Assembly: GCA_016190205.1 (NCBI GenBank)
Contig: JACPQZ010000052.1
Span: forward strand, 1-21,154
DNA length: 21,154 nucleotides
Direction: 5' to 3'
Source of the DNA: Candidatus Omnitrophota bacterium
GTDB taxonomy: Bacteria > Omnitrophota > JACPQZ01
Shown here in pieces: positions 29 through 21,150 of this stretch. The notes beneath the pieces were generated by a model. The model was given only the letters and a program-made list of their open reading frames with translations, was not told the origin of the DNA and made no database searches. How positions within the stretch are numbered: the stretch's first letter is position 1; each line of letters begins with the position of its first letter. The position numbers were made by a program, and so were the translations under genes.

Positions 29-224
29 GAACAATATCGAAATTCGAAATTAGAAATTCAATACCAGAGGTTCAACAATTCGGATTTTGGATTTCGAATT
101 TGTTCGTGCTTCGAATTTCATATTTCGAATTTTACAATCTGGTATCTGGTTACTGGTTTCTGGTTACTTGTATTGTTGTTGCGATCACCGATGACCGATC
201 ACCGATTCACGAATCACGAATCAC
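29..224. repeat. Degenerate heptad array downstream of otsB
   Basis: The DNA advances in 7-bp steps with a slowly changing motif. CGAAA-type units are at 38, 45 and 52. Units ending TTC are at 99, 106, 113 and 120. GGTNNCT units are at 141, 148, 155 and 162. GATCACC-type units are at 183, 190 and 197, passing to GAATCAC at 211 and 218. The last unit contains the otsB stop codon (221-223). The motif types and their order match the right half of the array at 2529-2892. The whole 220-bp gap before the window edge is essentially this array, and no gene is seen in it. Confidence 0.85.
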
Positions 225-1018
225 GCAACCCGAAGCCCTCTGATTTTTCTAAGGCACTCTAGAACCTCACGGGGTTCCTTGAGAAAATAAAGGGCCTGAC
301 TGTTGCCATTAGAGCTGCCCACTTTAACGGCTATGCCCCGCCCGGCGACCACGCGGAACGCGCCCTCGTCCGTGCGGTCATCCCCAAAATATATGGGGAT
401 CAGATTAAACCCCTGCCGGGCAGCTTCTTCGTGATACAGTTTGCTCACAAACGCGTCTTTGCCCCAATCAAACGGCGGATGGATTTCCCACACCTTCCTG
501 CCCTGCCGGATGACGCAATGCCCCATTTTGACCGCACGATCCACCAGCTTGTAGAATACCTTCTGTGCACGAGGAAGTTCTCGGGGCTCGGCGTTTCGGT
601 AATGGACGCTCACCGTAAGGCCCTTGTCTTCCACAATGACACCGCGGAAGGCGCTCATCCCGCGGCGCAGGCTTGCGGCGAGAGGCGCCATGCGCTTCCG
701 AAGAAGCCATGACTCCGGATGCACCCAGGAAGCCCGAGGCCCGTCCGCTTCCAGGCCGTGGTTACCAGAGTAAAGAATTCCCCCTACTCCCACACGATTT
801 TTGACATCGGCGACGCCACGCCCGCTCACGACACTCACCAGGATACCCGGCAGGGAAACAAGGGACGTTAGAACCTGCCGTCCTGCCTCTGAAAAGACGG
901 CGTCCCCGGGAGTTGCGACGATGGGCGTGAGGGTGCCGTCATAGTCAAGACAGAGAAGCAATTTTTGGGACTTGAGCCGCCCCGAAAACTGGGGCCAGGA
1001 GGACAAAAGATGTTGCAT
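221..1018 (-). CDS. otsB: Trehalose-6-phosphate phosphatase
   Basis: A HAD-superfamily phosphatase that removes phosphate from trehalose 6-phosphate, the second step of the OtsAB pathway, in the cytoplasm. The protein has 265 residues, normal for bacterial OtsB. The nucleophile motif LDYDGTLTP is near the N-terminus, with Asp25 as nucleophile and Asp27 as acid/base. SGR at 65-67 and GNHGLE at 85-90 are typical of the family, followed by a conserved-type lysine in DWGKD (about 187) and the Mg-binding GDDRTDE at 212-218. The ATG lies 3 bases after the otsA stop, so the two genes are almost certainly co-transcribed and translationally linked. The TGA stop lies inside the last heptad of the adjoining repeat array. 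Function is confident from motifs and context. Confidence 0.95.
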   Translation of the reverse strand: MQHLLSSWPQFSGRLKSQKLLLCLDYDGTLTPIVATPGDAVFSEAGRQVLTSLVSLPGILVSVVSGRGVADVKNRVGVGGILYSGNHGLEADGPRASWVHPESWLLRKRMAPLAASLRRGMSAFRGVIVEDKGLTVSVHYRNAEPRELPRAQKVFYKLVDRAVKMGHCVIRQGRKVWEIHPPFDWGKDAFVSKLYHEEAARQGFNLIPIYFGDDRTDEGAFRVVAGRGIAVKVGSSNGNSQALYFLKEPREVLECLRKIRGLRVA

Positions 1019-1021
1019 CGC

Positions 1022-2503
1022 TTACTGCTCTTGGAACTCTAGGCGCGCGAGCGCAGAAAGGACCTTGGCCGCCCAGCGGTAAATATTATTCTCCCGGATA
1101 ACCTTACGCATCCTTCCCATGCGCGTCCTCGTCTCCTCCGGATCCATACGCAGGGCCCGGTCCAGCGCCGCGGCAACCCCGTCCGAATCGTAAGGGTTCA
1201 CGATGAGGGCGTCTGTGAGCTCCCAGGCGGAGCCTGTAAACTGGGACAGCACGAGCACTCCCCCCTGATCCACGCGGGCCGCGCAGAACTCCTTCGCCAC
1301 CAGATTCATCCCGTCGTGAAGCGGGGTGATGAGACATGCCTGCGCAATGCGGTAGAGGGCGATGATCTCCTCATAATCCATGTAATCGCGGGTCAAGATG
1401 ACCGGAGACCACTCGGCCTCCGAATGCTTCCAATTGATGGCCTCTACAGCCGCATTGATTTCATCGTTCAGTTGTTTATAGCGCGGGATGTGAATCCGGC
1501 TCACCTGGCCCTGCTGCAAAAGAACAAACTTCTTTTTGTGCTCGGGATGGAGCTCGAGCAGCCTGTCCACCGCGCGAAGCTTATCCAGGATCCCTTTGGT
1601 GTAATCAATCCGGTCCACCCCCAATATGACGGCCATGCCGCCCACCCCGAAGCGCTCGATGAGGGCCTTCGAACGCGCGCGCGTCTCCTGCGAGGAGGCG
1701 ATGTCATGCGTGCGTTTGTAATCAATAGAAATGGGAAATGCCTTGATCTGCGTCTCATGCCCCTGGTAAGAAACCACGCCCCTCTCGCGGTCAATCCGGC
1801 TTTCGAGCTCCACGTCCACGGTGTCCAGCATGTTCGTCAGGTGATGGCGCGTATGAAATCCCAAAAGGTCCGTGGAGAGCAGGCCCTCAAGGACTTCGCG
1901 TTTCTGGGGGCAGATGCTGAAGACCTCCGGATTAGGCCAGGGGATGTGCCAAAAAAGGGCGGACATGATATTCGGCCGGTTGGCCTCCCTTAGAAATTTC
2001 GCCACCCGGGTCAGGTGATAATCCTGAAGCCACACAAAGGCGTTCCGGCCGCCCACCTCATCCAGGATAGCCTCTGCAAACTTGCGGTTGACTTCCTCGT
2101 ATCCCTCCCAGTCCTTACTCGAAAACTCGGGCCGCGTGTAGGCGACGTGACACAGGGGCCACAGCGCCCGGTTCGAATACCCATAGTAATAACAGTCCAT
2201 TTCCTGCTTGGAAAGCCAGATGCGCCTTAGGTCATAGCTCGGGGCCTCGGCCGGAACCCGCACCTTATTGTCTTTTCCCACCACCTGCCGGTCATATTTT
2301 TGATCGCCTACCGCGATCCAGGTCCCCTGTACAGCCTGCATGACAGGATCCAGGGCAGTCACGAGCCCCCCCGGCTGCCTCTGGCAGATGATCTTGCCAT
2401 CCTTCATGAAATGCCCGTACGGCTGGCGGCTCGAGACGATCACCAGGTGGTAATCGGCATATCTGGCGCGGATGGTTTCAATGAGAGATTCTTTGGTCCA
2501 CAT
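1022..2503 (-). CDS. otsA: Trehalose-6-phosphate synthase (GT20)
   Basis: Transfers glucose from UDP- or ADP-glucose to glucose 6-phosphate to give trehalose 6-phosphate, which OtsB then dephosphorylates to the osmoprotectant trehalose. From the ATG at 2503 the protein has 493 residues, close to the usual GT20 length. Seen: QPGGLVTAL at 43-51, WLQDYHL at 158-164, FWHIPWP at 184-190, LGFHTRHH at 214-221, GVDRIDYTKG at 295-304 with the Arg and Lys expected to bind donor phosphate, and a C-terminal TGSAWEL. The frame stays open to 2671, but those 56 extra residues are translated intergenic repeat, rich in Arg, Tyr and Val and unlike the family, so they are rejected. The start MWTKESL has only a weak AGGG upstream. 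First gene of the otsA-otsB pair. Confidence 0.95.
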   Translation of the reverse strand: MWTKESLIETIRARYADYHLVIVSSRQPYGHFMKDGKIICQRQPGGLVTALDPVMQAVQGTWIAVGDQKYDRQVVGKDNKVRVPAEAPSYDLRRIWLSKQEMDCYYYGYSNRALWPLCHVAYTRPEFSSKDWEGYEEVNRKFAEAILDEVGGRNAFVWLQDYHLTRVAKFLREANRPNIMSALFWHIPWPNPEVFSICPQKREVLEGLLSTDLLGFHTRHHLTNMLDTVDVELESRIDRERGVVSYQGHETQIKAFPISIDYKRTHDIASSQETRARSKALIERFGVGGMAVILGVDRIDYTKGILDKLRAVDRLLELHPEHKKKFVLLQQGQVSRIHIPRYKQLNDEINAAVEAINWKHSEAEWSPVILTRDYMDYEEIIALYRIAQACLITPLHDGMNLVAKEFCAARVDQGGVLVLSQFTGSAWELTDALIVNPYDSDGVAAALDRALRMDPEETRTRMGRMRKVIRENNIYRWAAKVLSALARLEFQEQ

Positions 2504-2528
2504 TTTAAGCCCTAAGCGTGCGCGGAGC

Positions 2529-2892
2529 GTGATACGTGAATCGTGATTCGTGATTCGTGAAACGTAGTTGACGACTTGAGTAACCAGAAACCAGTAACCA
2601 GATACCAGAAGATTCCAGAAACCAGATACCAGAGTAAAACGATAAAATTCGAAATACGAAACGCGAAGCACGAATCCATTCGAACTTCCGGCTTTCGGCT
2701 GTTAGCTTTGAGCAGATGGCTGAAGGCTGACAGCCGATAGCCTCTTTGTTTAGAACTTGTTTTGAATTTTGATCTTGTTCGGATTCTCCTTCTTTCTGGA
2801 AACTGGTATCTGGTATCATCTGGTTACTGGTAACTGGTATCTGGTTTCTTTTTTTCACGATCCACGGTTCACGAACCACGATTCACGAACCT
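2529..2892. repeat. 364-bp heptad array with inverted block order
   Basis: This fills almost all of the 395-bp gap between apt and otsA. Blocks each step by exactly 7 bp: GTGATTC-type (2529-2563), CCAG-type (2584-2633, with one 10-bp step), CGAA-type (2650, 2657, 2664, 2671), and GGCT/AGCC-type (2690 to 2739, eight units). Then come the reverse-complement forms of the earlier blocks: TTTTGAA-type (about 2760-2780), CTGG-type (2797-2841, with one 9-bp step) and CACGA/CACGG-type (2856 to 2884, five units). The order is therefore B-A-C-D-C'-A'-B', and the whole gap could fold on itself imperfectly. No coding gene is supported inside. Open frames here are short and low-complexity. Confidence 0.9.
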
Positions 2893-2898
2893 GTCTAT

Positions 2899-3432
2899 TC
2901 AGTAAGTAATAAGCGAGGTCACCGGGTAGTCTTTAAGCCGTTTCCGGCCGTTCAGGAAAGTGAGTTCGATGAGGAAGGTGCAGCCCACGATTTCTCCGCC
3001 GAGCCGCCGGATGAGTTTAATAACCGCATCGCAAGTACCCCCCGTTGCCAGAAGGTCATCCACCAGGAGCACCCGTTCTCCCTTCACAATGGCATCCTGG
3101 TGAATTTCCAGCTGATCCACGCCGTACTCAAGCTCATAAGACTCTTTGATACGGGTGTGCGGGAGTTTCCCCTTTTTACGAACCGGGATAAAACCTGCTT
3201 CCAGACGGGCCGCGATCGCCGCTCCAAAGATAAACCCCCGGGCCTCAACCGCCACCACCTTGTGAACGTGGGAAGCCGTATAGGGCCTGGACAATAGCCC
3301 CACCGCGTCATTGAAAAGCCTGCCGTCGGACAAAAGTGGCGTAATGTCCTTAAAAATGACGCCCTTTTTGGGAAAATCAGGAACATCCCGGATGGCGCTC
3401 TTGAGTTCTTGAACAGGAGTCAACGTCTGCAT
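2899..3432 (-). CDS. apt: Adenine phosphoribosyltransferase
   Basis: Salvages adenine by joining it to PRPP to give AMP and pyrophosphate in the cytoplasm. From the ATG at 3432 the protein has 177 residues, typical of bacterial APRT. It shows the N-terminal FPKKGVIFKDITPLL segment, VEARGFIFGAAIA, RKKGKLP, and the PRPP-binding motif VLLVDDLLATGGT near residue 125. The frame continues to 3546, but that extension runs through the 3' end of the sigma-factor gene and resembles no APRT, so MQTLTPVQEL is taken as the start. The start lies 7 bases after the sigma-factor stop, with a GGGGGAG Shine-Dalgarno-like stretch overlapping that gene's end, which indicates co-transcription. Confidence 0.95.
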   Translation of the reverse strand: MQTLTPVQELKSAIRDVPDFPKKGVIFKDITPLLSDGRLFNDAVGLLSRPYTASHVHKVVAVEARGFIFGAAIAARLEAGFIPVRKKGKLPHTRIKESYELEYGVDQLEIHQDAIVKGERVLLVDDLLATGGTCDAVIKLIRRLGGEIVGCTFLIELTFLNGRKRLKDYPVTSLITY

Positions 3433-3439
3433 GCCCCCC

Positions 3440-4390
3440 CTACTCCCCCGCGTGTTCGGTGGTTTCTTCATCCAGCGCCACAAAGAGACGCAGCTTGCGA
3501 ATGGCTGCCGACTCGATCTGCCGCACCCTTTCGCGCGTAAGCCCAAAACGCTTCGCCGTCTCTTCCAGGGTCAGGTTGTGGCCGTCCTTCAAGCCAAAGT
3601 GGAGCTCCAGGATCTGCCGCTCGCGCGCATCCAAAAGCGACAACAGCTCATCCACGCGCTCGCCCTTCAGGATTTCTTCAATGGCCTCTGCAGGAGAAGA
3701 CGCCGCCTGGTCTTCAATGAGGTCCAGAAGCTGGCCGCTTCCGTCCATACTTAAGGGGGCGTCGAGGGAGCTCGGACGGGACGCCATCTCCGAAATCTCC
3801 TTGACCTTGTCGACCCCGAGGTCCATGGCCTTGGCAACTTCCTTCGGGGTGGGTCTCCTGCCCAGCTTTTGAGAGAGGTGCTCGGTAATCTTTTTCCACT
3901 TCGTGATGGTCTCGGACATGTACACCGGGATGCGGATGGTCTTCCCCTGGTTGGAAAGCGCGCGAATAATCGCCTGCCGGATCCACCAGCTCGCGTATGT
4001 GCTGAAGCGATAGCCCCGCTTGTAGTTATACCGCTGAACAGCCTTCATAAGCCCCAAGTTGCCCTCTTCCACGAGGTCCTCCAGAGGAAGCCCCAGGTGC
4101 GTGTAGCGCTTCGCGATGGAAATGACGAGCCTCAAATTGGAGCGGATCATCTTGCGACGGGCCTCGCTGTCGCCTTCCGCCACGCGCTTGGCAAGCCGCC
4201 TTTCCTCATCCGCCGTAAGGAGCGGGATGGTTTCGATGTCCTTGAGATAAAGGCGCATGGGGTCCAGGTCCCGCGTCTTCGACTCGTAGTCCACGGCAGA
4301 AGACGCGCGAGACCTCCCCCGCGCCTTGGGAGACATCCAGCGTTTCTTTTTCTCGGCCAGGTCCTTTTTCTGTGATGGCTTGGGATTCAT
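3440..4390 (-). CDS. RNA polymerase sigma-70 factor, RpoD/RpoS-like
   Basis: A sigma factor that directs RNA polymerase to -10/-35 promoters. From the ATG at 4390 it has 316 residues. Region 1.2 starts at DPMRLYLKDIE (about 43). Region 2 carries NLRLVISIAKRY, LEDLVEEGNLGLMKAV and the melting/-10 segment GYRFSTYASWWIRQAI. Region 3 includes IRIPVYM. Region 4.2 has the helix-turn-helix LEETAKRFGLTRERVRQIE. It lacks the long region 1.1 and the large non-conserved insert of many primary sigmas, so it may be a compact primary or a group-2 sigma; the sequence alone does not decide. A GTG at 4429 would add 13 residues encoded by repeat DNA, whereas 4390 has AGGA six bases upstream. First gene of a pair with apt. 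Confidence 0.93.
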   Translation of the reverse strand: MNPKPSQKKDLAEKKKRWMSPKARGRSRASSAVDYESKTRDLDPMRLYLKDIETIPLLTADEERRLAKRVAEGDSEARRKMIRSNLRLVISIAKRYTHLGLPLEDLVEEGNLGLMKAVQRYNYKRGYRFSTYASWWIRQAIIRALSNQGKTIRIPVYMSETITKWKKITEHLSQKLGRRPTPKEVAKAMDLGVDKVKEISEMASRPSSLDAPLSMDGSGQLLDLIEDQAASSPAEAIEEILKGERVDELLSLLDARERQILELHFGLKDGHNLTLEETAKRFGLTRERVRQIESAAIRKLRLFVALDEETTEHAGE

Positions 4391-4396
4391 TAGTAA

Positions 4397-4400
4397 TCCT
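4397..4400 (-). promoter_or_regulatory. Ribosome binding site fixing the sigma-factor start
   Basis: AGGA on the minus strand lies six bases before the ATG at 4390. The alternative GTG at 4429 lies inside heptad-array sequence and has no such site. Confidence 0.6.
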
Positions 4401-4414
4401 GGTTTTTCATTTTG

Positions 4415-4526
4415 CGATCCACGATCCACGACTCTTGTATGAACTGCGCTTGTCGTGAGTGATGCGTGATATGTGGTGAGACAATCTCATCACTCTCATC
4501 ACTCATCACTCAACGCTCACGACAGA
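4415..4526. repeat. Heptad array and hairpin between ppdK and sigma gene
   Basis: CGATCCA units are at 4415 and 4422. GTGA/GTGG-type units step by 7 at 4459, 4466 and 4473. Their complement CTCA recurs at 4486, 4495, 4502, 4509 and 4516, mostly at 7-bp steps. TGTCGTGAG (4451-4459) pairs perfectly with CTCACGACA (4516-4524), so the two halves could form a 74-base stem-loop. It ends four bases before the ppdK stop codon and reaches close to the sigma-factor ribosome site. It could act as a terminator or attenuator, but no U-tract is visible. Confidence 0.8.
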
Positions 4527-4530
4527 CCAT

Positions 4531-7230
4531 TCACCTATCCTTGCCAACAGCCTGCGCCGCCGCAAGACGCGCGATGGGGACGCGGTAGGGCGAACAACTC
4601 ACGTAATCCAACCCCGCCCGGTGGCAGAACTCAACGGACTTAGGATCCCCTCCATGCTCCCCGCAAATCCCGACACTCAAGTCCGGCCGCCGCTTTCGGC
4701 CCTCGCGTACCGCAAGCTCAACGAGCTGGCCCACGCCGATCGTATCGAGACTCATAAAGGGGTCGGTCGCCAAAATCCCTGCATCCAGGTAAAAGGGCAG
4801 GAACTGGCCGATGTCGTCCCGCGAGAACCCGAACACAAGCTGTGTGAGGTCATTGGTGCCAAAGCTGAAAAAGTCGGCCGCCGCAGCAATCTCACCCGCC
4901 GTAAGGGCCGCGCGCGGGACTTCAATCATGGTGCCCACCTTAAACTTGATCTTGACTCTTTTCGCTTCGAGAATCTCCTGCGTGAGACGGCTGATCATGT
5001 CGCGGATGCGCGTATATTCATTCACATGGCCTACGAGGGGCACCATGATCTCGGGACGGGCGTCTACCCCTGCGCGGGCGAGCTCACACGCAGCCTCGAT
5101 GATCGCCCGCACCTGCATCGCGTATATTTCAGGGTACGTGATCCCGAGACGGCAGCCGCGATGACCCAGCATGGGATTAACTTCATGCAGGCGTTTGACC
5201 ATGGACTCGATTTTGGATCTCGGCACCTGCATGGACCGGGCCACGGAGTGCACCTCTTCCTCGCTTCTGGGGAGAAACTCGTGGAGAGGAGGATCCAGGA
5301 GACGGATTGTGACCGGAAGGCCCTCCATCACCTCCAGGATGCCCTTGAAATCGCTTCTTTGCATGGGCATGAGCTTATCCAACACACGGGTTCGCTGACC
5401 GGTTTCATCCGACAAAATCATCTGGCGCATGAAAGGCAGGCGGTCCTCGTTAAAAAACATGTGCTCCGTCCGGCAGAGCCCTATTCCCTCGGCGCCGAAC
5501 TCCCGCGCGAGTTTGGCATCGTGCGGTGTGTCCGCATTCGCCCGCACCCTCAAACGGCGCGCGCTGTCAGCCCAGGAGAGAAGCTTCTTGATATGGCTGC
5601 CCAGCTTGGGTTCGATGAGAGGGGCCTGGCCATCTATCACTTCCCCCGTGGAACCATTCAGGGTGATGGGATCTCCTTCCTTTAACTGGAGGTCTTTACC
5701 GGGCACGACCACCGTCATGGTACCGGTCTTTTCGTCGATGACGAGGTCCGAGCAGCCGGCTACACAGCACTTGCCCATACCGCGCGCCACCACTGCGGCG
5801 TGAGAGGTCATCCCGCCGCGCGCCGTCAAAATGCCCTCCGCCACGGCCATGCCCCCGATGTCCTCGGGACTCGTCTCCTGACGGACTAAAATCACTTTCT
5901 GACCGGTCTCGACGAGCTCCTCGGCGCGATCGGCCGTAAAGACGATCTGACCCACGGCAGCCCCCGGCGAGGCCGGGAGACCCTTGGCCAGCACCTTAAC
6001 TTTTGCACCGGGATCGATCATGCGATGCAAGAGCTGATCCAGCTGTCCGGCATCCACCCGCGCCAGGGCCGCCTGGCGGTTTAAGAGACCCTCCTCCTCC
6101 ATTTCCACGGCAATGCGTACAGCGCTCTGCGCTGTGCGCTTTCCGGAGCGGGTCTGAAGAATGAAGAGCCGGCCGGACTCGATGGTAAACTCGATATCCT
6201 GCATATCTTTGTAGTGGCGCTCGAGCTTTTTATAAAGCGAGACGAGCTGGGCATAGGCCTTGGGCTGTTCCTTCTTCAAGGATTCGATCGGCTGGGGAGT
6301 TCGTATCCCAGCGACAACGTCCTCCCCCTGGGCGTTGGCCAAATATTCTCCGTAGAAACGGTTTTCACCTGTGGAGGGATTCCGGGTAAAAGCAACTCCC
6401 GTACCGCTGTCGGAGCCCATATTTCCGAAGACCATGGCCTGGGTGTTGACCGCAGTGCCAAGCGCATGGCTGATCCTGTGGATATTCCGGTACTTGATGG
6501 CCCGCTCGTTGTGCCAAGAGCCAAAGACAGCATGAAACGCGAGCCTAAGCTGCTCTCGGGGATCTTCCGGAAATGGCTGTGCCGCATGCCGCGCGATAAT
6601 CTTCTTAAACGTTCTGACGAGCTCTTTGAGATCTTCGACGACAAGCCCCGTATCCTGCGTCACGCCGCGCTTCTTACGGGCGCCCTCGAGCGCCTCTTCG
6701 AAATGGGCGCGCTCCACCTTGAGCACCACATCGCCGAACATCTGCAAGAGCCTGCGATAGGCGTCGTAGGCAAAGCGTTCGTTCCGGCTCCGCTGGGCCA
6801 ATCCCTTCACCGTCACGTCATTGAGTCCCAGGTTGAGTATCGTGTCCATCATCCCGGGCATGGACACCGGGGCCCCGGAGCGCACGGACACGAGGAGGGG
6901 ATTGCGCGGATCGCCAAACTTCTTCCCCATCACCTGTTCCAGACGGGCCAGGTGCGCTTGAACCTCTTCATCCAGACCGCCGGGAAAACGGTTCTTGTTC
7001 TCATAGTAGAGGGCGCACACTTGGGTGGTAATGGTAAAACCGGGCGGGACCGGTACACTTAAGTTGGTCATCTCCGCCAGGTTGGCCCCCTTGCCGCCCA
7101 GGAGGTCCTTCATGCCGCGGTTCCCCTCGGCCTTTCCCTCCCCGAAGAAGTAGACATATTGGGTCCCCACTGACCCACGGCGGTTAAGGGCGCGCCCGCG
7201 CTCTTTACGACCCTTCACGGTGATAGTCAC
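4531..7230 (-). CDS. ppdK: Pyruvate, phosphate dikinase
   Basis: Interconverts pyruvate, ATP and phosphate with phosphoenolpyruvate, AMP and pyrophosphate, at the pyruvate/PEP node. The protein has 899 residues, about 25 more than the common bacterial length; the excess is a basic N-terminal stretch before YVYFFGEGKAEG. The nucleotide-binding domain shows LGGKGANLAEM (44-54) and RSGAPVSMPGMMDT (117-130). The swivelling phosphohistidine domain shows GGMTSHAAVVARGMGKCC with His477. The PEP-binding barrel shows GLCRTEHMFF and GICGEHGGDP, with catalytic Cys at about 856. The GTG start lies 3 bases after the glyS stop with a GAGGGGG stretch upstream, so it follows glyQ-glyS in one operon. An internal start nearer YVYFFGEG is possible, but no better-placed ribosome site was seen. 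Confidence 0.96.
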   Translation of the reverse strand: MTITVKGRKERGRALNRRGSVGTQYVYFFGEGKAEGNRGMKDLLGGKGANLAEMTNLSVPVPPGFTITTQVCALYYENKNRFPGGLDEEVQAHLARLEQVMGKKFGDPRNPLLVSVRSGAPVSMPGMMDTILNLGLNDVTVKGLAQRSRNERFAYDAYRRLLQMFGDVVLKVERAHFEEALEGARKKRGVTQDTGLVVEDLKELVRTFKKIIARHAAQPFPEDPREQLRLAFHAVFGSWHNERAIKYRNIHRISHALGTAVNTQAMVFGNMGSDSGTGVAFTRNPSTGENRFYGEYLANAQGEDVVAGIRTPQPIESLKKEQPKAYAQLVSLYKKLERHYKDMQDIEFTIESGRLFILQTRSGKRTAQSAVRIAVEMEEEGLLNRQAALARVDAGQLDQLLHRMIDPGAKVKVLAKGLPASPGAAVGQIVFTADRAEELVETGQKVILVRQETSPEDIGGMAVAEGILTARGGMTSHAAVVARGMGKCCVAGCSDLVIDEKTGTMTVVVPGKDLQLKEGDPITLNGSTGEVIDGQAPLIEPKLGSHIKKLLSWADSARRLRVRANADTPHDAKLAREFGAEGIGLCRTEHMFFNEDRLPFMRQMILSDETGQRTRVLDKLMPMQRSDFKGILEVMEGLPVTIRLLDPPLHEFLPRSEEEVHSVARSMQVPRSKIESMVKRLHEVNPMLGHRGCRLGITYPEIYAMQVRAIIEAACELARAGVDARPEIMVPLVGHVNEYTRIRDMISRLTQEILEAKRVKIKFKVGTMIEVPRAALTAGEIAAAADFFSFGTNDLTQLVFGFSRDDIGQFLPFYLDAGILATDPFMSLDTIGVGQLVELAVREGRKRRPDLSVGICGEHGGDPKSVEFCHRAGLDYVSCSPYRVPIARLAAAQAVGKDR

Positions 7231-7233
7231 CCT

Positions 7234-9343: not shown

Positions 9344-9413
9344 GGGCCTTCAGCTTTCGGCCTTCAGCTTTCTGCTATCGGCCTTCGGCTGTTGGCTGAC
9401 GGCTGACAGCTCA
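9344..9413. repeat. Ten-unit heptad array in the glyQ 3' end
   Basis: GGCC, AGCT, TGCT or GGCT recurs at 9345, 9352, 9359, 9366, 9373, 9380, 9387, 9394, 9401 and 9408, ten consecutive exact 7-bp steps. The motif matches the central block D of the array at 2690-2745. It overlaps the last 20 or so codons and the stop of glyQ, and its left edge supplies the AAGG ahead of glyS. Confidence 0.9.
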
Positions 9414-10352: not shown

Positions 10353-10534
10353 GTCCCAGGTCCCAAGTTCTTGAACTACTCACGCGTGATACAAGCCCCG
10401 TGACCCGCATGCCGCGGATTGGGGTTTGGGTCTTGGGTACAGGGTCTCGAGACCCGAGCCCCGTGACCCGAGACCTGGGACATGGGACTTGGGACAAACC
10501 GGAATCTTTCAACGTTGATATGGGACTTTGGACT
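10353..10534. repeat. Heptad array with central palindrome upstream of glyQ
   Basis: GTCCCAG and GTCCCAA sit at 10353 and 10360. GGGT units follow at 10428, 10435 and 10442. GACCC/GACNTGG units are at 10451, 10458, 10465, 10472, 10479, 10486 and 10493, all at 7-bp steps. The perfect palindrome GGGTCTCGAGACCC (10442-10455) lies near the middle. The exact 13-mer GCCCCGTGACCCG occurs at 10395-10407 and 10458-10470. The right end (10472-10495) is complementary in type to the left end (10353-10366). This accounts for most of the 277-bp gap between the phosphatidyltransferase and glyQ. The remaining 85 bases next to glyQ look like an ordinary AT-rich leader. Confidence 0.85.
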
Positions 10535-13270: not shown

Positions 13271-13276
13271 CCCCTC
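13271..13276 (-). promoter_or_regulatory. Ribosome binding site fixing the recO start
   Basis: GAGGGG on the minus strand lies eight bases before the ATG at 13262 and touches the stop codon of the DUF502 gene. It supports 13262 over the TTG at 13301. Confidence 0.6.
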
Positions 13277-13905: not shown

Positions 13906-13943
13906 CTGAAAACCCCTGTTCCTTAAAAGGGAACGCTTTTATT

Positions 13944-14642: not shown

Positions 14643-15079
14643 GTCGTCAATTCATCTGAACGATCAAGGATTTCCTCCTGCACGCGTAACATCCGGCTCC
14701 GTCCGGGACCGCGGTCCCTGAACCCGGCAAGGTGGAGGATGCCGTGGACCACATAGCGCCGGACCTCGCGCCGGAAGGGTTCGTGCCAACGCCTCGCATT
14801 CACCCTCGCGCGGTCGAGAGAGATGGCGATATCCCCCACGTGCCCCCGGAGGGCACCCCGCCTTTTTTCTTCATCATAATAAAACGCGAGGCAGTCGGTG
14901 GCTTCATCCCGGCCGTGGAACTTGCGGTTCAAGCTCCGCATCGCCGAGTCGCTTAAGAGCCTGATGGCCACCTCGGCCCGCGGCCGCCCTACACGGCGCA
15001 GGGCGAGCCGCGCTGCGCGGCGAATCTCCTCGAGCGGAAGGCGGATCGTCCGGTGACGGTTTTCAACCTTCACGCGCAT
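14639..15079 (-). CDS. ybeY: Endoribonuclease YbeY
   Basis: Zinc-dependent endoribonuclease acting in 16S rRNA 3'-end maturation and ribosome quality control. The protein has 146 residues, typical. Seen: LNRKFHGRDEATDCLAF (50-66), GDIAIS (82-87) and the metal site HGILHLAGF at 112-120. The usual site is H-x3-H-x5-H; here the ligands are His112 and His116 with Asp122 in the third place, in RDRG. Arg at the end (MRVQEE region) follows the normal pattern. It overlaps the phoH end by 17 bases and the kinase-phosphatase start by four. The phoH-ybeY-dgkA order is common in bacteria and supports the call. Confidence 0.93.
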   Translation of the reverse strand: MRVKVENRHRTIRLPLEEIRRAARLALRRVGRPRAEVAIRLLSDSAMRSLNRKFHGRDEATDCLAFYYDEEKRRGALRGHVGDIAISLDRARVNARRWHEPFRREVRRYVVHGILHLAGFRDRGPGRSRMLRVQEEILDRSDELTT

Positions 15080-16037
15080 TTTTCTTGGAACGCGGCCGTG
15101 TTTTCTTGTATGCGCTGATCACTTCCTGCACCAGGCGATGCCGCACCACGTCCTCGCCGCCAAACTGAACGAAACGGATCCCTTCGATGCCCTTCAATAG
15201 CTTCTGGGCCTCCACGAGTCCGGAGGCCTTGCCGCGGGGCAGATCCACCTGGGTCACGTCTCCTGTGATCACAGCCTTGGAATCAAACCCCAGGCGCGTC
15301 AGGAACATGAGCATCTGCCCCGAGGTCGTGTTCTGGGCTTCGTCCAAGATAATGAAGGAGTCGTTCAAGGTGCGCCCTCGCATAAAGGCGAGAGGCGCCA
15401 CCTCGATGATGCCGCGGTTTAAGAGCTGCTGGACCCGGTCGAACTCCATCATTTCGTACAGGGCGTCGTACAAGGGTCTTAAATAGGGATTGACCTTTTC
15501 CGTGACCGTGCCCGGGAGAAAACCCAGCTGTTCACCCGCCTCCACAGCAGGCCGGGCCAGGATGATGCGGCTGACGATTTGCCTCACGAGCGCCGCGACG
15601 GCCATGGCGATCGCGAGATAAGTTTTTCCCGTCCCGGCCGGGCCTATGCCGAATACCACATCGTGGCGTTTGATCGCCTCGATATACTCCCGCTGCGTCC
15701 GGGTGCGCGGGACGACGTGTTTTCTTTTCGAAGGGACCTCGATGGCCTCGCTGATCTGCCGCCCGAGGTCAAAAGTGCCGTTCTGCTGAAAGAGCACCAG
15801 GGCCTGGGTGATGTCGGTCCGGCTCAAAACCTGGCCCTTCCTCGAGCACTCCAGGAGTTGATGAATGAACTGCTCCGACCGCTCGACCGTATCTTTCTCG
15901 CCCCCGATGGTAAGGGTTTCGCCCCGCCCGATCAAGGTGACACCGAAGGCGCGCGAAATAAGCTTCAGGTGCTCATCGCGCGGCCCAAATAAACGCTGGG
16001 CCTCGCCGGCGTTCTCGATTCGTATGAACTTATTCAT
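15063..16037 (-). CDS. phoH: PhoH family ATPase
   Basis: A cytoplasmic P-loop ATPase of the PhoH (YbeZ-like) family, often encoded beside ybeY and thought to act with it in RNA metabolism. The protein has 324 residues. A KH-like or leader region covers about 1-105. The Walker A motif GPAGTGKT is at 132-139, Walker B FIILDEAQ at 228-235, and the family segment LARPAVEAGEQLGFLPGT at 160-177. The ATG at 16037 has GAGG six bases upstream and overlaps the aspS end by eight bases. The ribosome site borders the CGTCCGT repeat array. Identity is secure; the precise physiological substrate is not known from sequence. Confidence 0.95.
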   Translation of the reverse strand: MNKFIRIENAGEAQRLFGPRDEHLKLISRAFGVTLIGRGETLTIGGEKDTVERSEQFIHQLLECSRKGQVLSRTDITQALVLFQQNGTFDLGRQISEAIEVPSKRKHVVPRTRTQREYIEAIKRHDVVFGIGPAGTGKTYLAIAMAVAALVRQIVSRIILARPAVEAGEQLGFLPGTVTEKVNPYLRPLYDALYEMMEFDRVQQLLNRGIIEVAPLAFMRGRTLNDSFIILDEAQNTTSGQMLMFLTRLGFDSKAVITGDVTQVDLPRGKASGLVEAQKLLKGIEGIRFVQFGGEDVVRHRLVQEVISAYKKTRPRSKKNAREG

Positions 16038-17826
16038 CCCTTTCCTCGTCCGTCGTCCGTCGTCCGTCGTCCCTTTGAAGAATCTTTATGTTTAGCTCCT
16101 TGAGCTGCCTATCGGATACGGTCGCGGGCGCGCCGCTCACGAGACACGTCCCCTTCTGGGTCTTGGGAAATGCGATCGTATCCCGAATCGTCGTCAGATT
16201 GAGCATGAGCATGATGAGGCGGTCAAGGCCGACGGCGATACCCCCGTGCGGCGGCGCCCCGTATTCGAGGGCATTCAACAAAAATGAAAACTGGGCCCGG
16301 GCTTGGACCTCTCCAATCCCCAGCACCTTAAAGACCTTTTCCTGAAGATCCCTCCTGTGAATTCGGATACTGCCTCCGGCCACCTCCGTTCCATTGAGCA
16401 CCAAATCATAGGCGCGCGCGTATACAGACCCTGCATCGTTCTCCACGCGAGCCGCATCAGCTTCCAGAGGGGCCGTGAACGGATGGTGCATAGATACCCA
16501 GCGGCCCTCGTCCTCGCTCCATTCAAAGAGCGGAAACTCCGTTATCCAGACGAAACTATTTTTCGAAGGGATGAGGTCTAACCGGCTTGCCAAATGGCGG
16601 CGCAGCATGTCGGCCAGCATCCTGGCCTTGTGCGGCTTGTCCGCGATAAAAAAGAGGGTTTCTCCGGGCGCGGCCTTCAAACGTCCCGCCAGCCTCTTGA
16701 CCAGGCCCTCCGGGAAAAACTTGGAGATCGGCGACCCCTCATCGCCGGCCCCGGCCTTAAGCCACGCCAGGCCCTGGCCTCCCTGTTCCTTGACCCACTC
16801 GGTCAGACGGTTTAGGTCCTCCCGGCTCAAACGGGGTTTACCCTCCGTGGCAAGGGCGAGAACGACGCCCCCCTGATCCATTACAGCTCGAAAAATCTTG
16901 AGCTCGGTTTCCCGCACCAGGACGCTCACGTCGGCGAGCTCCATTCCAAAACGCATATCGGGCTTGTCCGTTCCGAAGCGAGCCAGGGACTCCGCGTGCT
17001 TAAGGCGCGGGAAAGGGATTTCCAACTTAATCCCCAATAGACTTTGATAAAGCCGGGATACCAACCCCTCGACCACCCGGATAACTTCGTCCTCATCTAC
17101 GAATGACATCTCCAGATCTATCTGGGTGTGCTCCGGCTGGCGGTCGGAGCGAAGGTCCTCGTCCCGAAAGCAGCGGGCGATCTGGAAATACTTCTCGAAG
17201 CCCGAGACCATGAGGACCTGTTTAAACTGCTGGGGAGACTGGGGCAGGGCATAAAAGGTCCCCGGCACGAGCCGCGATGGAACGAGAAAGTCCCGCGCGC
17301 CCTCGGGGGTGCTGCGGGTCAAGACAGGCGTTTCAATCTCTACAAAGCCTTGGGAAGCCAGCCAGTTGCGCGCTTCCAACGTCAGCCGGTGACGAAAGCG
17401 GAGCGTGCGCTGCATGGGCGCCCGCTTCAGATCCACAAACCGGTATGCCAGCCGCACCTCTTCGGAGACCGATGCCGCGGCGTCCAGCTCAAAGGGAAGC
17501 GGCGAGGAGATATTGATGATCTCAAGACGCGCAACGCCTATCTCGATACCGCCTGTCGTCAGACGGGGATTTTCTGTCCCAGCCGGACGCCGCTTCACCT
17601 GGCCCTCCACACCTACAACGTACTCCGGCCTCACCTCCCGCGCGCGCGCATGCAGGGCAGCGTCACCCTCGGGATTAAAAACGAGCTGCGCCATGACCTG
17701 TTCGTCCCTTAAGTCGATGAACAAAAGCCCTCCATGATCCCTCACGGCAGCCACCCAACCCGTCAGGACCACCTGTTGACCCAGCATTTGGGATGTCAGG
17801 GAGCCGCAGGAATGGGTTCTCTTCAT
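16030..17826 (-). CDS. aspS: Aspartyl-tRNA synthetase
   Basis: Class IIb synthetase charging tRNA-Asp. About 598 residues from the ATG at 17826, the normal bacterial length including the GAD insertion domain. Seen: the OB-fold anticodon domain with GWVAAVRDHGGLLFIDLRD (23-41), motif 2 FRDEDLRSDRQPEHTQIDLE, and motif 3 GGIAVGLDRLIMLM. Residue 31 is His in RDHGG, as reported for non-discriminating AspRS that also charges tRNA-Asn. A GTG one codon upstream (17829) is also possible. The ATG overlaps the hisS stop by one base (TGATG). The last 14 residues, RDDGRRTTDEERDE, are encoded mainly by a 7-bp tandem repeat and so are probably not ancestral. Confidence 0.96.
   Translation of the reverse strand: MKRTHSCGSLTSQMLGQQVVLTGWVAAVRDHGGLLFIDLRDEQVMAQLVFNPEGDAALHARAREVRPEYVVGVEGQVKRRPAGTENPRLTTGGIEIGVARLEIINISSPLPFELDAAASVSEEVRLAYRFVDLKRAPMQRTLRFRHRLTLEARNWLASQGFVEIETPVLTRSTPEGARDFLVPSRLVPGTFYALPQSPQQFKQVLMVSGFEKYFQIARCFRDEDLRSDRQPEHTQIDLEMSFVDEDEVIRVVEGLVSRLYQSLLGIKLEIPFPRLKHAESLARFGTDKPDMRFGMELADVSVLVRETELKIFRAVMDQGGVVLALATEGKPRLSREDLNRLTEWVKEQGGQGLAWLKAGAGDEGSPISKFFPEGLVKRLAGRLKAAPGETLFFIADKPHKARMLADMLRRHLASRLDLIPSKNSFVWITEFPLFEWSEDEGRWVSMHHPFTAPLEADAARVENDAGSVYARAYDLVLNGTEVAGGSIRIHRRDLQEKVFKVLGIGEVQARAQFSFLLNALEYGAPPHGGIAVGLDRLIMLMLNLTTIRDTIAFPKTQKGTCLVSGAPATVSDRQLKELNIKILQRDDGRRTTDEERDE
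16047..16072. repeat. CGTCCGT tandem repeat in aspS 3' end
   Basis: CGTCCGT occurs at 16047, 16054 and 16061, with a partial fourth copy to 16072: exact 7-bp tandem units. It encodes most of the AspRS C-terminal tail and lies directly upstream of the phoH ribosome site. It has the same period as the other arrays but a different motif. Confidence 0.9.
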
Positions 17827-19106
17827 CACTGGACCGCCCGCGTGAGATAAGCCACGAGCTCACGTATGGGAAGCTCCTTCTGCTCGCGTGCGACGAGGTC
17901 CTTGACCGTCACCACCTGCCGCTCCATCTCGCGCTCGCCCAGCATCACAACGGAGCGGAGCTTAAGCCGGTCGGCCTCCCGAAGCTGTGACTTAAGACTG
18001 CGGCTGGTTTCAAATGCCATATGACACGGGACGCCGCCCTCCCGCAGCTTACGCACGAAATGAAGTGCGCTCTCCACGCCGCTTTCACCCAGCAACGCGA
18101 CATAAACACCGCCCTTGGCCTCTTCGGCGGCATTTTTTCCGCCTGCCTCCAACGCCAGCATGAGCCGTTCCAGACCTATGGCCATTCCCACTCCCCCCAC
18201 CTGCGGCCCTCCCAAGAGCTCTACCAAACCGTCATAGCGCCCGCCGGCCGCCACAGCATCCTGGGCGCCCAGCCCCTGGGCCACTACCTCAAAAGCGGTC
18301 TTCGTATAATAGTCCAACCCCCTCACAAGACAAGGTTCGATTTGAAAGGCCACGCCGGAAGCCTTGAGACCCTTTTGAACCGTCTCGAAATGGCGGCCGC
18401 AGTCGCAGGCCGCAGTCCGGATGTGTTCCGCAAGTGAAGGCCCCCCCCGGGTCACCTTGCGGCAGCCCTCTTTTTTGCAGTCCAAGATGCGCCACACCCG
18501 CTTGGGGTAACGCCCCCGGCACTCCGGACAGAGCGAGGGGAGATGAGCTTTGAGATACTGGGTGAACAGGGTCACAAAACGGGCCCTGCAGGTCTCGTGT
18601 CCGCAGCCTACACTGTTTAAAAGCAGTGTGAAGCGATCCGCCCCCGCCCCGATGAGAAGGTCTGACAAGAGCGTGATCATTTCGACATCGGCCAGGGGAT
18701 GAGCGCAGCCGATTGCTTCCGCGCTGATCTGATGAAACTGCCTCTGCCTGCCCGCCTGGGGCCTCTCCGTCCTGAACATGGGTCCGATCAAATACAGTTT
18801 CGCGAGGGCCCCCTCGCTATTCATGTGGTGTTCCACATAGGCCCGGCAAACCGATGCGGTAGCCTCCGGCCGGAGGGAAACGCTCGCCCCGCCGCGTTCG
18901 TTAAACGTGTACATCTCCTTTGAAACGATATCCGTCGCCTGACCGATCGCCCGCTCGAAAAGCCCTGTCGCCTCCAGAACGGGTGTCCGGATTTCTTCAA
19001 ATCCGTAAGCCCTTAGGGTGCTGCGGGCCGATTGCTCGACCCGCTCCCACCGCGCTACCTCCCCGGGCAGGATATCCTTCATGCCGCGCACGGTCTTAAT
19101 CTCCAC
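17826..19106 (-). CDS. hisS: Histidyl-tRNA synthetase
   Basis: Class II synthetase charging tRNA-His. From the GTG at 19106 it has 426 residues, the normal bacterial length. Seen: the N-terminal VRGMKDILPGE, motif 2 FRTERPQAGRQRQFHQI, the histidine-binding segment LVRGLDYYTKTAFEV and AAGGRYDGLVELLGG, motif 3 GVGMAIGLERL, and a C-terminal anticodon domain. A Cys-rich insert (CPEC, ILDCKKEGC, CDCG) is seen in a subset of HisRS. The frame is open to 19250, but the 48 extra residues lie antisense-like over the AMMECR1 gene end and match nothing. A strong GGAGG six bases before the GTG fixes the start. The gene overlaps the AMMECR1 end by 11 bases. Confidence 0.96.
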   Translation of the reverse strand: MEIKTVRGMKDILPGEVARWERVEQSARSTLRAYGFEEIRTPVLEATGLFERAIGQATDIVSKEMYTFNERGGASVSLRPEATASVCRAYVEHHMNSEGALAKLYLIGPMFRTERPQAGRQRQFHQISAEAIGCAHPLADVEMITLLSDLLIGAGADRFTLLLNSVGCGHETCRARFVTLFTQYLKAHLPSLCPECRGRYPKRVWRILDCKKEGCRKVTRGGPSLAEHIRTAACDCGRHFETVQKGLKASGVAFQIEPCLVRGLDYYTKTAFEVVAQGLGAQDAVAAGGRYDGLVELLGGPQVGGVGMAIGLERLMLALEAGGKNAAEEAKGGVYVALLGESGVESALHFVRKLREGGVPCHMAFETSRSLKSQLREADRLKLRSVVMLGEREMERQVVTVKDLVAREQKELPIRELVAYLTRAVQ

Positions 19107-19644
19107 CGAAGACCTCCGCCTGAAAGCGCCACAGCCGGGCCCCCTCTCTCCAGGCCCCGGGCTTGAGCCCAGCCTTGAGGGAGACCTGGCGCAGAAATTC
19201 GCGGGGCGAAAAACGATGCTGAACCGCCACCTGGGGAAGGAGGAGTCCACTGGCGGCCCCCTTTCGGATCAAAAGCCCGTCCTCGCCCACCCGGACCTCG
19301 TCGGGTCCATGGATTTCTTCCGGTTCCGAAAGCACAGAAATCTCCATCCTCACTTCATCCAGTTCTGCCAAGGCAAGCTCCGGAAAGCGCGGATCACAAA
19401 ACGCCGCATCTATGGCCACAACAGAAATGAGTTCCCGGAGAGGCCGGTCAGGCTCCACCGCTCCGATGCAACCGCGTAACTCTTCCTTAACGTATAAGCT
19501 CACAAAGACCCCGCGCTTCACGTCCAGCCCGGCCGGCGCAGGTTCCGGCACCGTGTGAGGTTTGCGGAGCAGGCGGCCTTCGATCGCCCCCCGTGCCGAC
19601 TTTAATAGCCATTCCTTTTGCAGCAAAGACAGTTTATGAAACAC
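19096..19644 (-). CDS. AMMECR1 domain protein
   Basis: Member of the AMMECR1 family (AmmeMemoRadiSam system protein A), a conserved protein whose biochemical role is not settled. The signature LRGCIG is at residues 56-61 (from 19644), preceded by GVFVSLYVKEE and followed by DPRFPELALAELDEVRMEISVLSEPEEI, LLIRKGAASGLLLPQVA and a Trp-rich end, all typical. The partners Memo and radical SAM are not in this window. The start is uncertain: GTG at 19644 gives 182 residues and the usual N-terminus, while ATG at 19698 would overlap the upstream gene by 65 bases. No good ribosome site is visible for either. Confidence 0.88.
   Translation of the reverse strand: MFHKLSLLQKEWLLKSARGAIEGRLLRKPHTVPEPAPAGLDVKRGVFVSLYVKEELRGCIGAVEPDRPLRELISVVAIDAAFCDPRFPELALAELDEVRMEISVLSEPEEIHGPDEVRVGEDGLLIRKGAASGLLLPQVAVQHRFSPREFLRQVSLKAGLKPGAWREGARLWRFQAEVFGGD
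19113..19117 (-). promoter_or_regulatory. Ribosome binding site fixing the hisS GTG start
   Basis: GGAGG on the minus strand is six bases before the GTG at 19106. It is the strongest Shine-Dalgarno in the window and selects this start over the much longer open frame. Confidence 0.75.
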
Positions 19645-19954
19645 GGGAGCCGGGCCGAATGTCCCGATCCAACGTGAGGATTCCCAACACGCGATCATCC
19701 TTGGCAGCGAGGAGCATCCCCCGGCTTTCCACCCCGCGTATCAGGGCAGGCTCCAGGTTGCACACGACGATCACCGATTTACCGGTAAGCTCCTCCGCCC
19801 GGTAATGCGGTTTGATTCCGGCCACGATTTCGCGTGTTTCATCTCCGAGGTCCACCGTCAGGAGATAGAGCTTGTCCGCGTTCGGATGGTCCTTGACCGA
19901 TCGAACAGTCGCGACCCGGAGATCCAGCTTTTTAAATTCTTCTAACGTCACCAT
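19634..19954 (-). CDS. tRNA-binding domain protein (MetRS beta / CsaA-like)
   Basis: A 106-residue stand-alone tRNA-binding OB-fold of the EMAP II / MetG C-terminal type. Seen: FKKLDLRVATVRSVKDHPNADKLYLLTVDLG in consecutive segments (7-37), REIVAGI, LTGKSVIVVCNLEPALIRGVESRGMLLAA, and the end ILTLDRDIRPGSRVS, all characteristic. It may serve as a detached MetRS C-terminal domain (in trans with metG elsewhere) or as a CsaA-like chaperone. The MetRS-type pattern fits better, and its place ahead of two synthetases agrees. ATG at 19954; no Shine-Dalgarno seen. It overlaps the next gene's proposed GTG start by 11 bases. Confidence 0.9.
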   Translation of the reverse strand: MVTLEEFKKLDLRVATVRSVKDHPNADKLYLLTVDLGDETREIVAGIKPHYRAEELTGKSVIVVCNLEPALIRGVESRGMLLAAKDDRVLGILTLDRDIRPGSRVS

Positions 19955-19972
19955 TTTTTAACGAATAAATAG

Positions 19973-20084
19973 CCCGGTTCGTACGGCGTACATTACTCCA
20001 AGCGAGCGCGGTCGTACTGCGTCCTGCGCAGGCTAATTCTAACAGCTAGTCTTGCGCGATGCGCAAGGTGCAATGTGCAAAGAG
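19973..20084. repeat. GTACTGC-family repeat and heptads
   Basis: Positions 19973-20024 match 21061-21112 in the same orientation at 45 of 52 bases. Short 7-bp steps follow: CGTAC at 19980 and 19987, TGCG at 20018 and 20025, TGCG at 20053 and 20060, GTGC at 20068 and 20075. This fills most of the 183-bp gap between the tRNA-binding protein gene and the small membrane protein gene. Confidence 0.8.
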
Positions 20085-20099
20085 AATTATTCCCCATAG

Positions 20100-20125
20100 G
20101 GCCAGACACGAATGCGTGTCTGGCC
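20100..20125. repeat. 11-bp-arm palindrome, second copy of GCCAGACA element
   Basis: GGCCAGACACG (20100-20110) and CGTGTCTGGCC (20115-20125) are perfect 11-bp arms with the loop AATG. It lies 12 bases beyond the stop of the minus-strand gene at 20138, so it may act as that gene's terminator, but no U-tract follows. Its inner arms are shared with the palindrome at 12471-12494. Confidence 0.8.
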
Positions 20126-20137
20126 TTGCACTAACGT

Positions 20138-20776
20138 TCAATAAGTGGAGAGGGCCGATCGGTAAATCTTGACCCGTTCCCCCTGCTCGGTAAGCACCAA
20201 AAGGTAATCCCATTCCTCGTGCAGGATCATGCCGCTTAGGACTTCGCCGGATTTTAGATAAAAATCCTGTGATCCGGAAGGCGGACCCTGATTGCTTGCC
20301 TCCGCCTCCTGCGCCAGGCGGGCCTGTTCCGCTTGCTCCGGGAAGAACGGACCGCCGTAGACTTTGTCGACCCCAACGAGTTCCGCCGCATCGTCGGGCA
20401 GTGAAGACTTCAGTTCTCCCCTCATTCCTTTCGTGATGGTTCGCTTCATATCTTCGAAGACCCGCGCCTCCGGACTTTCCGCAGGGGCCTCCGGCCCCTT
20501 CGGGCCGTAGGTCCGGGGGGCACCGGGAATTTTGAGGGCCTCGATCTCATGGATGCCCCTTTCAACATAAATACCAGGCAGCACAAAAAGACCGACGAGC
20601 GACATGCCGATTCCGGCGAGAGAGAGTACCAAAACCCCCGCCCTCGCCGCTCGTCCAGTCAAAAAAAGGATCACGCCCGCGGCCCCGAACACCAAGGCGA
20701 GGATGCCAAAGGGGATGCCCAGCACCTGCACCACAAAGAGAAGCGCCAGGACAAAGCTGGCGAGAGCGAATTTCAT
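20138..20776 (-). CDS. Small membrane protein of unknown function
   Basis: A 212-residue protein not recognised as a named family. Three hydrophobic segments at about 4-19, 21-41 and 46-69 form a compact membrane part. A linker follows that is rich in Pro, Gly, Ala and Glu (about 85-105). Then a probably soluble region ends in YLKSGEVLSGMILHEEWDYLLVLT and GERVKIYRSALSTY. That last stretch resembles short Sm-like beta folds that begin with a Lys-Ser-Gly-Glu turn, but this is only a visual likeness. ATG at 20776. No ribosome site is seen, because the heptad array begins at the start codon. It is a single gene, not packed with its neighbours. Confidence 0.75.
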   Translation of the reverse strand: MKFALASFVLALLFVVQVLGIPFGILALVFGAAGVILFLTGRAARAGVLVLSLAGIGMSLVGLFVLPGIYVERGIHEIEALKIPGAPRTYGPKGPEAPAESPEARVFEDMKRTITKGMRGELKSSLPDDAAELVGVDKVYGGPFFPEQAEQARLAQEAEASNQGPPSGSQDFYLKSGEVLSGMILHEEWDYLLVLTEQGERVKIYRSALSTY

Positions 20777-20949
20777 CGTTGATTCACCGGTTCGTTTATC
20801 GGTGTTCGGTGATCGTTTATCGCACGCTTCAACGAAATAACATCGTTCATTTTTGAATGGTAGATTTTAGATTTTAGATTGTACCTTGTAGATTTCTACC
20901 TCCGGGACCCCCCCAATCTAAAATCAACAATCGTAAATCTAAAATGAAC
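20775..20949. repeat. Heptad arrays upstream of the small membrane protein gene
   Basis: First block: GTTCG/TATCG/GATCG at 20790, 20797, 20804, 20811 and 20818, exact 7-bp steps. Second block: TAGAT at 20861, 20868, 20875 and 20889, with a variant at 20882. Third block: AATC at 20915, 20922, 20929 and 20936, with AATG at 20943; this is the reverse complement of the second. Blocks two and three are separated by about 21 bases including a run of seven C, so they could form a hairpin with 35-base arms. The array fills most of the gap up to the tRNA. Confidence 0.88.
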
Positions 20950-20969
20950 GTCGTACCTACGCGTAAACC

Positions 20970-21042
20970 TGGAGCTGACCGGGATCGAACCGGCGGCCTC
21001 CACAATGCGAATGTGGCGCTCTCCCAGCTGAGCTACAGCCCC
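20970..21042 (-). tRNA. tRNA-Ala (anticodon CGC)
   Basis: A complete 73-base cloverleaf on the minus strand. The acceptor stem GGGGCTG/CAGCTCC has the G3-U70 wobble pair that identifies alanine tRNA, with discriminator A73. D-arm GCTC/GAGC. The anticodon stem CCACA/TGTGG holds loop TTCGCAT with anticodon CGC at 21007-21009 (reads GCG). The T-arm GCCGG/CCGGT has the TTCGATC loop. The 3' CCA is not encoded. It is the rightmost gene, flanked on both sides by heptad-type repeats. Confidence 0.96.
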
Positions 21043-21060
21043 TTTAGAAAGTATAACGTG

Positions 21061-21150
21061 CCCGGATCGTACTGCGTACCTTATTCCATGCGAGCGCGAT
21101 CGTACTGCGTACAGCGTAAAGTGTACTGCGTACTGCGTACTGCGTGAAAG
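21061..21150. repeat. GTACTGC repeat array upstream of tRNA-Ala
   Basis: 21061-21112 is a 45/52 match to 19973-20024. From 21102 on, GTACTGC-type units step by exactly 7 bp at 21102, 21109, 21116, 21123, 21130, 21137 and 21144. The array continues to within a few bases of the window end and lies on the upstream side of the minus-strand tRNA gene, where its promoter should be. No clear promoter was seen. Confidence 0.88.

Follow-up and report, generated by a model that had tools for sequence, protein, structure and literature searches.

Heptamer arrays of an Omnitrophota genome as probable inverted arms of small S23 (PF05635) mobile elements

The intergenic DNA of a 21,154-bp stretch of Candidatus Omnitrophota bacterium (assembly GCA_016190205.1, contig JACPQZ010000052.1, positions 1 to 21,154; hereafter the window) is rich in arrays of short degenerate units that follow one another at a step of 7 bp. 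Sequence comparison indicates that they are very probably terminal arms, in inverted orientation, of small mobile elements of the S23 family (PF05635). A complete element would measure about 0.4-0.5 kb and consist of an arm, one gene for an S23 four-helix-bundle protein and the complementary arm. Each arm would hold approximately four tandem heptamers plus 2-3 bases, giving five copies of a core, and each S23 lineage would have its own heptamer. Most copies in this genome would then be derivatives without S23, resembling miniature inverted-repeat transposable elements (MITEs), or lone arms, or elements inserted one inside another.

S23 genes inside arm pairs were found in the window's own genome. 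The longest element of one array family (heptamer CTGGTwT, CTGG for short), at C24:40214-40682, encodes a 139-aa protein that matches both PF05635 (23S_rRNA_IVP) and TIGR02436 (four helix bundle protein). Two neighbouring CTGG elements, C24:38969 and C24:47853, retain this S23 reading frame in truncated form. The genome has five PF05635 matches, four of which lie between inverted arrays belonging to four different families: ACGC on contig C13, CGTG on C21, CTGG on C24 and CACA on C31, the left array of the last being weak.

Likewise, S23 genes of other organisms are framed by such arrays. We assembled 72 S23 loci from this genome, its phylum, other phyla, and plasmids of cyanobacteria and a gemmatimonad, and counted flanking arrays at the 63 non-redundant loci with both flanks available. 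Lag-7 arrays flank S23 on both sides in 36 of these and on either side in 51; at lag 8 the figures are 3 and 8, at lag 9 a single locus has arrays on both sides, and at lags 5, 6, 10 and 11 none does. Random positions in the same loci score 0.000 for both sides and 0.105 for either, and lag-7 arrays flank the control genes glyQ in 0/19 (both) and 4/19 (either) cases and PPDK in 0/37 and 0/37. Around a given S23 gene the left arm is the reverse complement of the right (similarity 0.88, versus 0.55 in direct orientation and 0.56 with other loci). S23 pairs of more than 60% identity have a motif in common in 61% of cases, versus about 6-16% below that identity (Mantel p 0.001; the statistic includes some near-identical S23 copies). 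We infer that the S23 protein recognises its own arms. None of 20 S23 loci tested matches rRNA in Rfam. Arrays with an 8-bp step and about four units flank S23 in loci L298, L335 and L342, and also in L329 and L343. The number of cores thus seems a more constant feature than the step. The helical phasing suggested by the sequence-only reading, in which 21 bp make two turns, is not needed, and several S23 elements have an 8-bp period with about four units. S23 genes were also seen on cyanobacterial plasmids with cas10 and cmr3 as neighbours (L343) or with cas6 and cas4 (L340), in each case lying between the two.

Filled and empty versions of one site were found in Nostoc plasmids. A TTCTAG-GTT-ATG stop/start junction between two genes is empty in L338, L347, L348 and L349, and in L344 and L345 it is filled by 420 bp with the structure [TCAGGAG arm][S23][arm]. 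A second Nostoc junction shows the reciprocal pattern, in L338. A third filled plasmid, L350, carries a 182-bp element without S23, bounded by arms of the same motif and inserted within the S23 gene; like the window arrays, this insert is an arm pair without S23, here one that has moved. Any duplication at the Nostoc site amounts to at most about 3 bp. In these plasmids, units of arm, S23 and arm as well as units of two arms occupy precise sites, two of them stop/start junctions.

The 7-bp period of the intergenic DNA, on which the sequence-only reading was built, is real, with a sharp lag-7 peak in the window and in the whole genome. In the window, base identity at lag 7 is 0.439 in intergenic versus 0.252 in coding DNA, with echoes at lags 14, 21 and 28. 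The borders between the two classes are approximate, genes having been taken from our own hexamer-based caller (1451 predicted genes). Each of the nine segments listed in that reading was compared with 200 dinucleotide shuffles, and seven clearly exceed them at lag 7: 29-224 (z 9.6), 2529-2892 (z 13.3), 4415-4526 (z 5.8), 9344-9413 (z 7.8), 10353-10534 (z 8.8), 20775-20949 (z 6.2) and 21102-21150 (z 5.9). The remaining two hold less well, 19973-20084 being weak (z 3.3, no significant echo) and 16047-16072, a perfect array, being only 26 bp long (z 2.8). The genome comprises 1,648,513 bases in 76 contigs (~1.65 Mb; 1,647,403 bases reassembled, seven contigs masked as N), and its assembly is 92.8% complete and broken at array-type repeats. 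It holds 539 lag-7 arrays (score >=10), 409 of them mostly intergenic; control lags 5, 8, 10, 11 and 13 give 5-13 arrays each, and lags 6 and 9 give 40 and 33, counts that are probably inflated by codon periodicity. Arrays are enriched 3.7-fold within 300 bp of contig ends, as expected because repeats break assemblies. The same arrays recur across many genomes and also in plasmid records that are complete, which argues against an assembly artefact. Gene order in this genome is very one-sided, with 1280 of 1382 neighbouring pairs of the predicted genes in tandem.

The motifs had been described as completely different from segment to segment, which proved wrong. At a slightly different threshold, 574 arrays group into 17 clusters, of which some ten are large: CTGGTwT (153 arrays), ACGCwGT (95), CGTGmwT (72), GGACGwn (47), TTCGnAT (46), TCGGTkA (33), ACnCAys (30), CGGGAAG (28), GTCGCTr (26) and GCynTCA (13). 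Cores of 4-5 bp are conserved within each family and the remaining bases vary, and one genome holds many families. The proposal of one kind of agent behind many motifs is upheld; what is shared is the period, not the motif.

Simple heptamer repeats made by replication slippage would be an alternative, heptameric repeats being over-represented in many bacterial genomes (PMC4692102), and unit number does vary, up to the very long arm of L340, a run of TAAAAGC units. Array lengths, however, peak at 17-18, 24 and chiefly 30-32 bp (186 arrays) and fall sharply above 33 instead of decaying. The 30-32 bp quantum corresponds to four heptamers plus 2-3 bases, that is five cores and four linkers, which slippage alone would not be expected to produce; it recurs in other genomes of the phylum, e.g. 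as a single AG(NNACCAG)x4 block with unrelated flanks. Neighbouring inverted arrays also have a fixed polarity, namely -+ for CTGG (20 vs 2 in the other polarity) and ACGC (19 vs 3, those three lying more than 400 bp apart), and +- for CGTG (10 vs 0), TCGG (5 vs 0) and GTCG (4 vs 0). The sequence-only reading had noted neither the length quantum nor this polarity, nor the likeness of spacers from locus to locus. Given in addition that spacers are homologous between loci, that arrays flank S23 genes, and that the filled and empty sites contradict slippage as primary cause, we regard it as very unlikely to be the source of the arrays; it probably acts secondarily.

Copying of a sequence, which the sequence-only reading had discounted, is involved: the arrays belong to dispersed elements whose spacers, with the arrays masked, still match between loci in both orientations, up to 98-100% over about 100 bp. 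A composite recurs in which CGTG, CTGG (4 + 3 heptamers) and TTCG arrays are followed by the mirror order, and the window holds one full copy (2528-2891) and one truncated copy (37-238). CTGG elements have sharp ends, AG...CT, with unrelated flanks and an outer tag RAG. The 36 paired ones measure 119-473 bp and have MITE-like traits: inverted ends, small size, many copies and related interiors. The CTGG family is also common to another genome, G056, of a different family (loci L233-L252), where many arms face each other almost without spacer and are enclosed by a further inverted repeat, AATAGCATAAG...CTTATGCTATT.

Paired inverted short repeats of this kind resemble bacterial interspersed mosaic elements (BIMEs), and the genome has four Y1_Tnp genes, so that repetitive extragenic palindromic (REP) sequences moved by REP-associated tyrosine (RAYT, Y1) transposases come to mind. 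Two of the four Y1 genes have no array within 2.5 kb, and the others lie near 1-2 arrays without an enclosing inverted pair. The outer tag reads RAG where GTAG or CGTC would be expected, and Y1 genes occur in 48 of 58 relatives, whereas CTGG arrays are patchy. REP/BIME elements are therefore an extremely improbable explanation, and the RAYT/Y1 link was rejected, the Y1 genes not being array-flanked. A transposase-bearing autonomous relative was also sought: among near-duplicate genes nearly all pairs are contig-end duplicates, and the full-length relatives found carry S23 only. A search for empty sites within the genome by joined flanks gave only weak array-to-array matches, and a search for the window element in phages and plasmids by DNA similarity gave no phage match and plasmid matches that are short and weak.

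With their fixed core, drifting linkers, fixed unit number and inverted pairing, the arrays also resemble protein-binding sites, and they could be multi-site operators of nucleoid or global regulators, as proposed for the paired sites of Geobacter metallireducens, or resemble the 7-bp heptads bound by the omega ribbon-helix-helix protein. About ten large families at 294 loci of a 1.65-Mb genome, the sharp insertion ends, the dispersed homologous copies and the S23 genes within arm pairs all speak against operators, which we hold to be quite unlikely.

Within the window, all copies are S23-less MITE-like derivatives, single arms or nested elements, as follows.

37-58 and 79-135 (37..135): TTCG-family arrays facing each other, the interior of a CTGG element that is cut short near the start of the contig
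79-171: weak array scored over this range, overlapping the TTCG and CTGG parts of the truncated element
137..171, + strand: CTGG-family arm of four heptamers (CTGGTWN), right arm of the truncated element
182..238, - strand: TCGG-family block (CGATCAC) that continues as a CGTG-type block (CGAATCA), where a trehalose-phosphatase-like gene has its 3' end
2528..2565, + strand: outer arm of the CGTG family, the family common to the arms of the S23 gene on C21
2579..2633, - strand: CTGG left arm, AG + four heptamers (2579-2609) and AG + three heptamers (2610-2633), of the family common to the S23 element C24:40212-40684
2645..2790, no strand: TTCG arrays of the interior with a GGCT/AGCC hairpin (2685-2742), the nested palindrome centre
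2796..2849, + strand: CTGG-family right arm of 3 + 4 heptamers, with the end CTGGTTTCTT
2854..2891, - strand: outer arm of the CGTG family, inverted partner of 2528-2565
4415..4431, - strand: short CGTG-family remnant (CGATCCA)
4455..4480, - strand: left arm of an S23-less CACA element, aligning with the C31 S23 element's left arm
4495..4527, + strand: right arm of the same CACA element, aligning with the C31 S23 element's right arm
9346..9411, + strand: GCTC-family array, GCCTTCA/GCTTTCG followed by GCTGACG, which extends into the glyQ 3' end
10416..10495, no strand: GGAC-type arrays, GGGTTTG.. and GACCTGG/GACCCGA
16046..16072, - strand: perfect TCGTCCG array of 27 bp within the 3' end of aspS
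19973..20084, no strand: weak ACGC-family remnant (about 19976-20030, loosely like the C13 right arm) and a GTGC array (20053-20080)
20792..20822, + strand: single TCGG-family block of 31 bp, four heptamers + 3
20861..20945, no strand: TAGATTT / AATCTAA inverted pair (20861-20890 and 20915-20945)
21101..21145, - strand: ACGC-family arm (CGTACTG) adjoining the contig end and matching the C13 S23 element over 46 bp of its left arm

At 9346-9411 and 16046-16072 the arrays supply the final codons of two aminoacyl-tRNA synthetase genes (glyQ and aspS).

The full composite at 2529-2892 folds strongly as RNA (z = -13), most arrays lie between tandem genes, and elements often span from a stop codon to shortly before the next start. 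The arms might accordingly serve as transcribed hairpins, which between the genes of an operon could terminate transcription, stabilise mRNA or be sites for RNase III. The truncated copy at 29-224, however, folds no better than its shuffles (z -0.4), and about half of the array loci (149 of 294) hold a single array. In the larger families the two arms of one pair resemble each other no more than they resemble arms of other pairs, with no compensatory matching, so that arms are not maintained as perfect palindromes. A hairpin function is thus an unlikely reason for the arrays.

How could S23 elements combine a fixed step with so many motifs? Solved structures of S23 (2gsc and 2rld) each contain five chains, and Lin et al. 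2006, as cited in PMC4990558 and PMC10053308, describe S23 as five four-helix bundles in a ring. Given five subunits and a modal five cores per arm, one core per subunit is the most economical reading, and it is quite possible, though we propose it tentatively, that the S23 pentamer ring takes its arm in this way. The step would be set by the S23 fold and the motif by the lineage, with arms drifting within what the ring accepts; this would account for a fixed step with a free motif. The TRAP ring, which binds RNA repeats, offers an analogy. Transcribed copies can form very long hairpins and might be cleaved by RNase III, as for the intervening sequences of 23S rRNA. In its widest form, to which we give slightly less than even weight, the proposal is a widespread class of mobile element with the S23 ring as its sole product. 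The ring would recognise an arm through five cores at even spacing, each subunit taking one, and the element would spread with no recognisable transposase of its own. It would be the shared origin of the unexplained heptamer and octamer arrays of many bacterial phyla, the S23 intervening sequences of 23S rRNA being one habitat.

Several observations weigh against the attribution to S23 elements or against the ring. The window has no S23 gene, and its link to S23 is array family membership. The fifth S23 gene of the genome (C16) lies in an operon and has no arms, and no S23 gene was found for the TTCG, TCGG, GTCG, CGGG and GGAC families in this 92.8%-complete, repeat-broken assembly. The empty sites come from Nostoc, not Omnitrophota, and target-site duplication is not clearly above chance in the 36 paired CTGG elements. 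Among the 72 S23 loci, 13 have no lag-7 array at threshold, some of them having lag-8 arrays. The ring fits the modal five cores and the five chains, yet longer arms occur, up to 17 units, five cores being the mode and not a rule. The GC-rich CGGG and GGAC blocks of four heptamers, located within genes and for the most part unpaired, may belong to a different class; examples of such blocks (CGGGAAG and GGACGwn types) are C23:12278-12307 and C59:27632-27663.

What appears new here is the proposed cause. Such arrays themselves, of which the sequence-only reading knew no description with many drifting motifs and one period, have been described in Xanthomonas (PMC4692102), Geobacter metallireducens (PMC2700814), and Beggiatoaceae and Cyanobacteria (PMC4679880). 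A search of open full text, with subscription literature outside it, found no paper tying heptamer arrays to S23. Such arrays have been reported piecemeal as slippage, quadruplexes or regulator sites, and the S23 link gives them one testable cause. It also offers a candidate function for the common orphan family PF05635 and would account for its presence inside operons, including CRISPR gene clusters; PF05635 near defence or CRISPR genes may reflect S23 elements and not Avd or a diversity-generating retroelement. If the ring with five cores is true, recognition would follow a simple code, solvable from pairs of S23 and arm sequences.

In Coxiella burnetii, the S23-encoding intervening sequence in 23S rRNA measures about 0.43 kb and has complementary ends forming a 28-bp stem; such sequences are regarded as selfish, with their origin and the function of the S23 protein unsettled (PMC4990558). 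Our elements likewise enclose a PF05635 gene between complementary arms, but they lie between protein genes and not in rRNA, their arms are of four heptamers, and S23-less derivatives abound. Like MITEs they are short, dispersed and nested, with inverted ends and no enzyme of their own; unlike MITEs, they lack a clear target-site duplication and their relatives carry S23, not a transposase. The Avd protein of diversity-generating retroelements is a related four-helix bundle (a weak NCBIfam match below cut-off; homology stated in PMC10053308). Unlike Avd systems, the window's genome has no reverse transcriptase in a PF00078 search.

The GGGAATC repeats of Xanthomonas (PMC4692102) are heptamers with mostly four units, conserved at positions 1-4 and 6, and form about 70 convergent inverted pairs per genome. 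They are intergenic, near the upstream gene, and were read as G-quadruplexes. The unit, its number and the inverted pairing are as in our arrays, one motif family being studied there; the sections consulted draw no link to S23, though XCC0516, an S23 protein of solved structure, comes from that same species. Geobacter metallireducens has four tandem heptamers at 49 inter- and intragenic places, and paired sites on opposite strands at variable distance with 4x8 or 5x7 repeats (PMC2700814). These arrays are similar to ours but were read as regulator-binding sites or RNAs, and no carrier gene was named; the lag-8 S23 arms of about four units match the 4x8 paired sites. The TAACTGA repeats of Beggiatoaceae, Cyanobacteria and Bacteroidetes are intergenic tandem heptamers of patchy, apparently horizontal distribution (PMC4679880). 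Together with the short tandemly repeated repetitive sequences of cyanobacteria, they have been described as one motif repeated in direct orientation, perhaps with a role in translation, unlike the inverted arms found here. Two viral contig loci (L271 and L272) have 25-27 heptamer arrays on one contig, many of them in inverted pairs of an ACTGATT/CAGTAAT type that resembles the cyanobacterial TAACTGA repeats.

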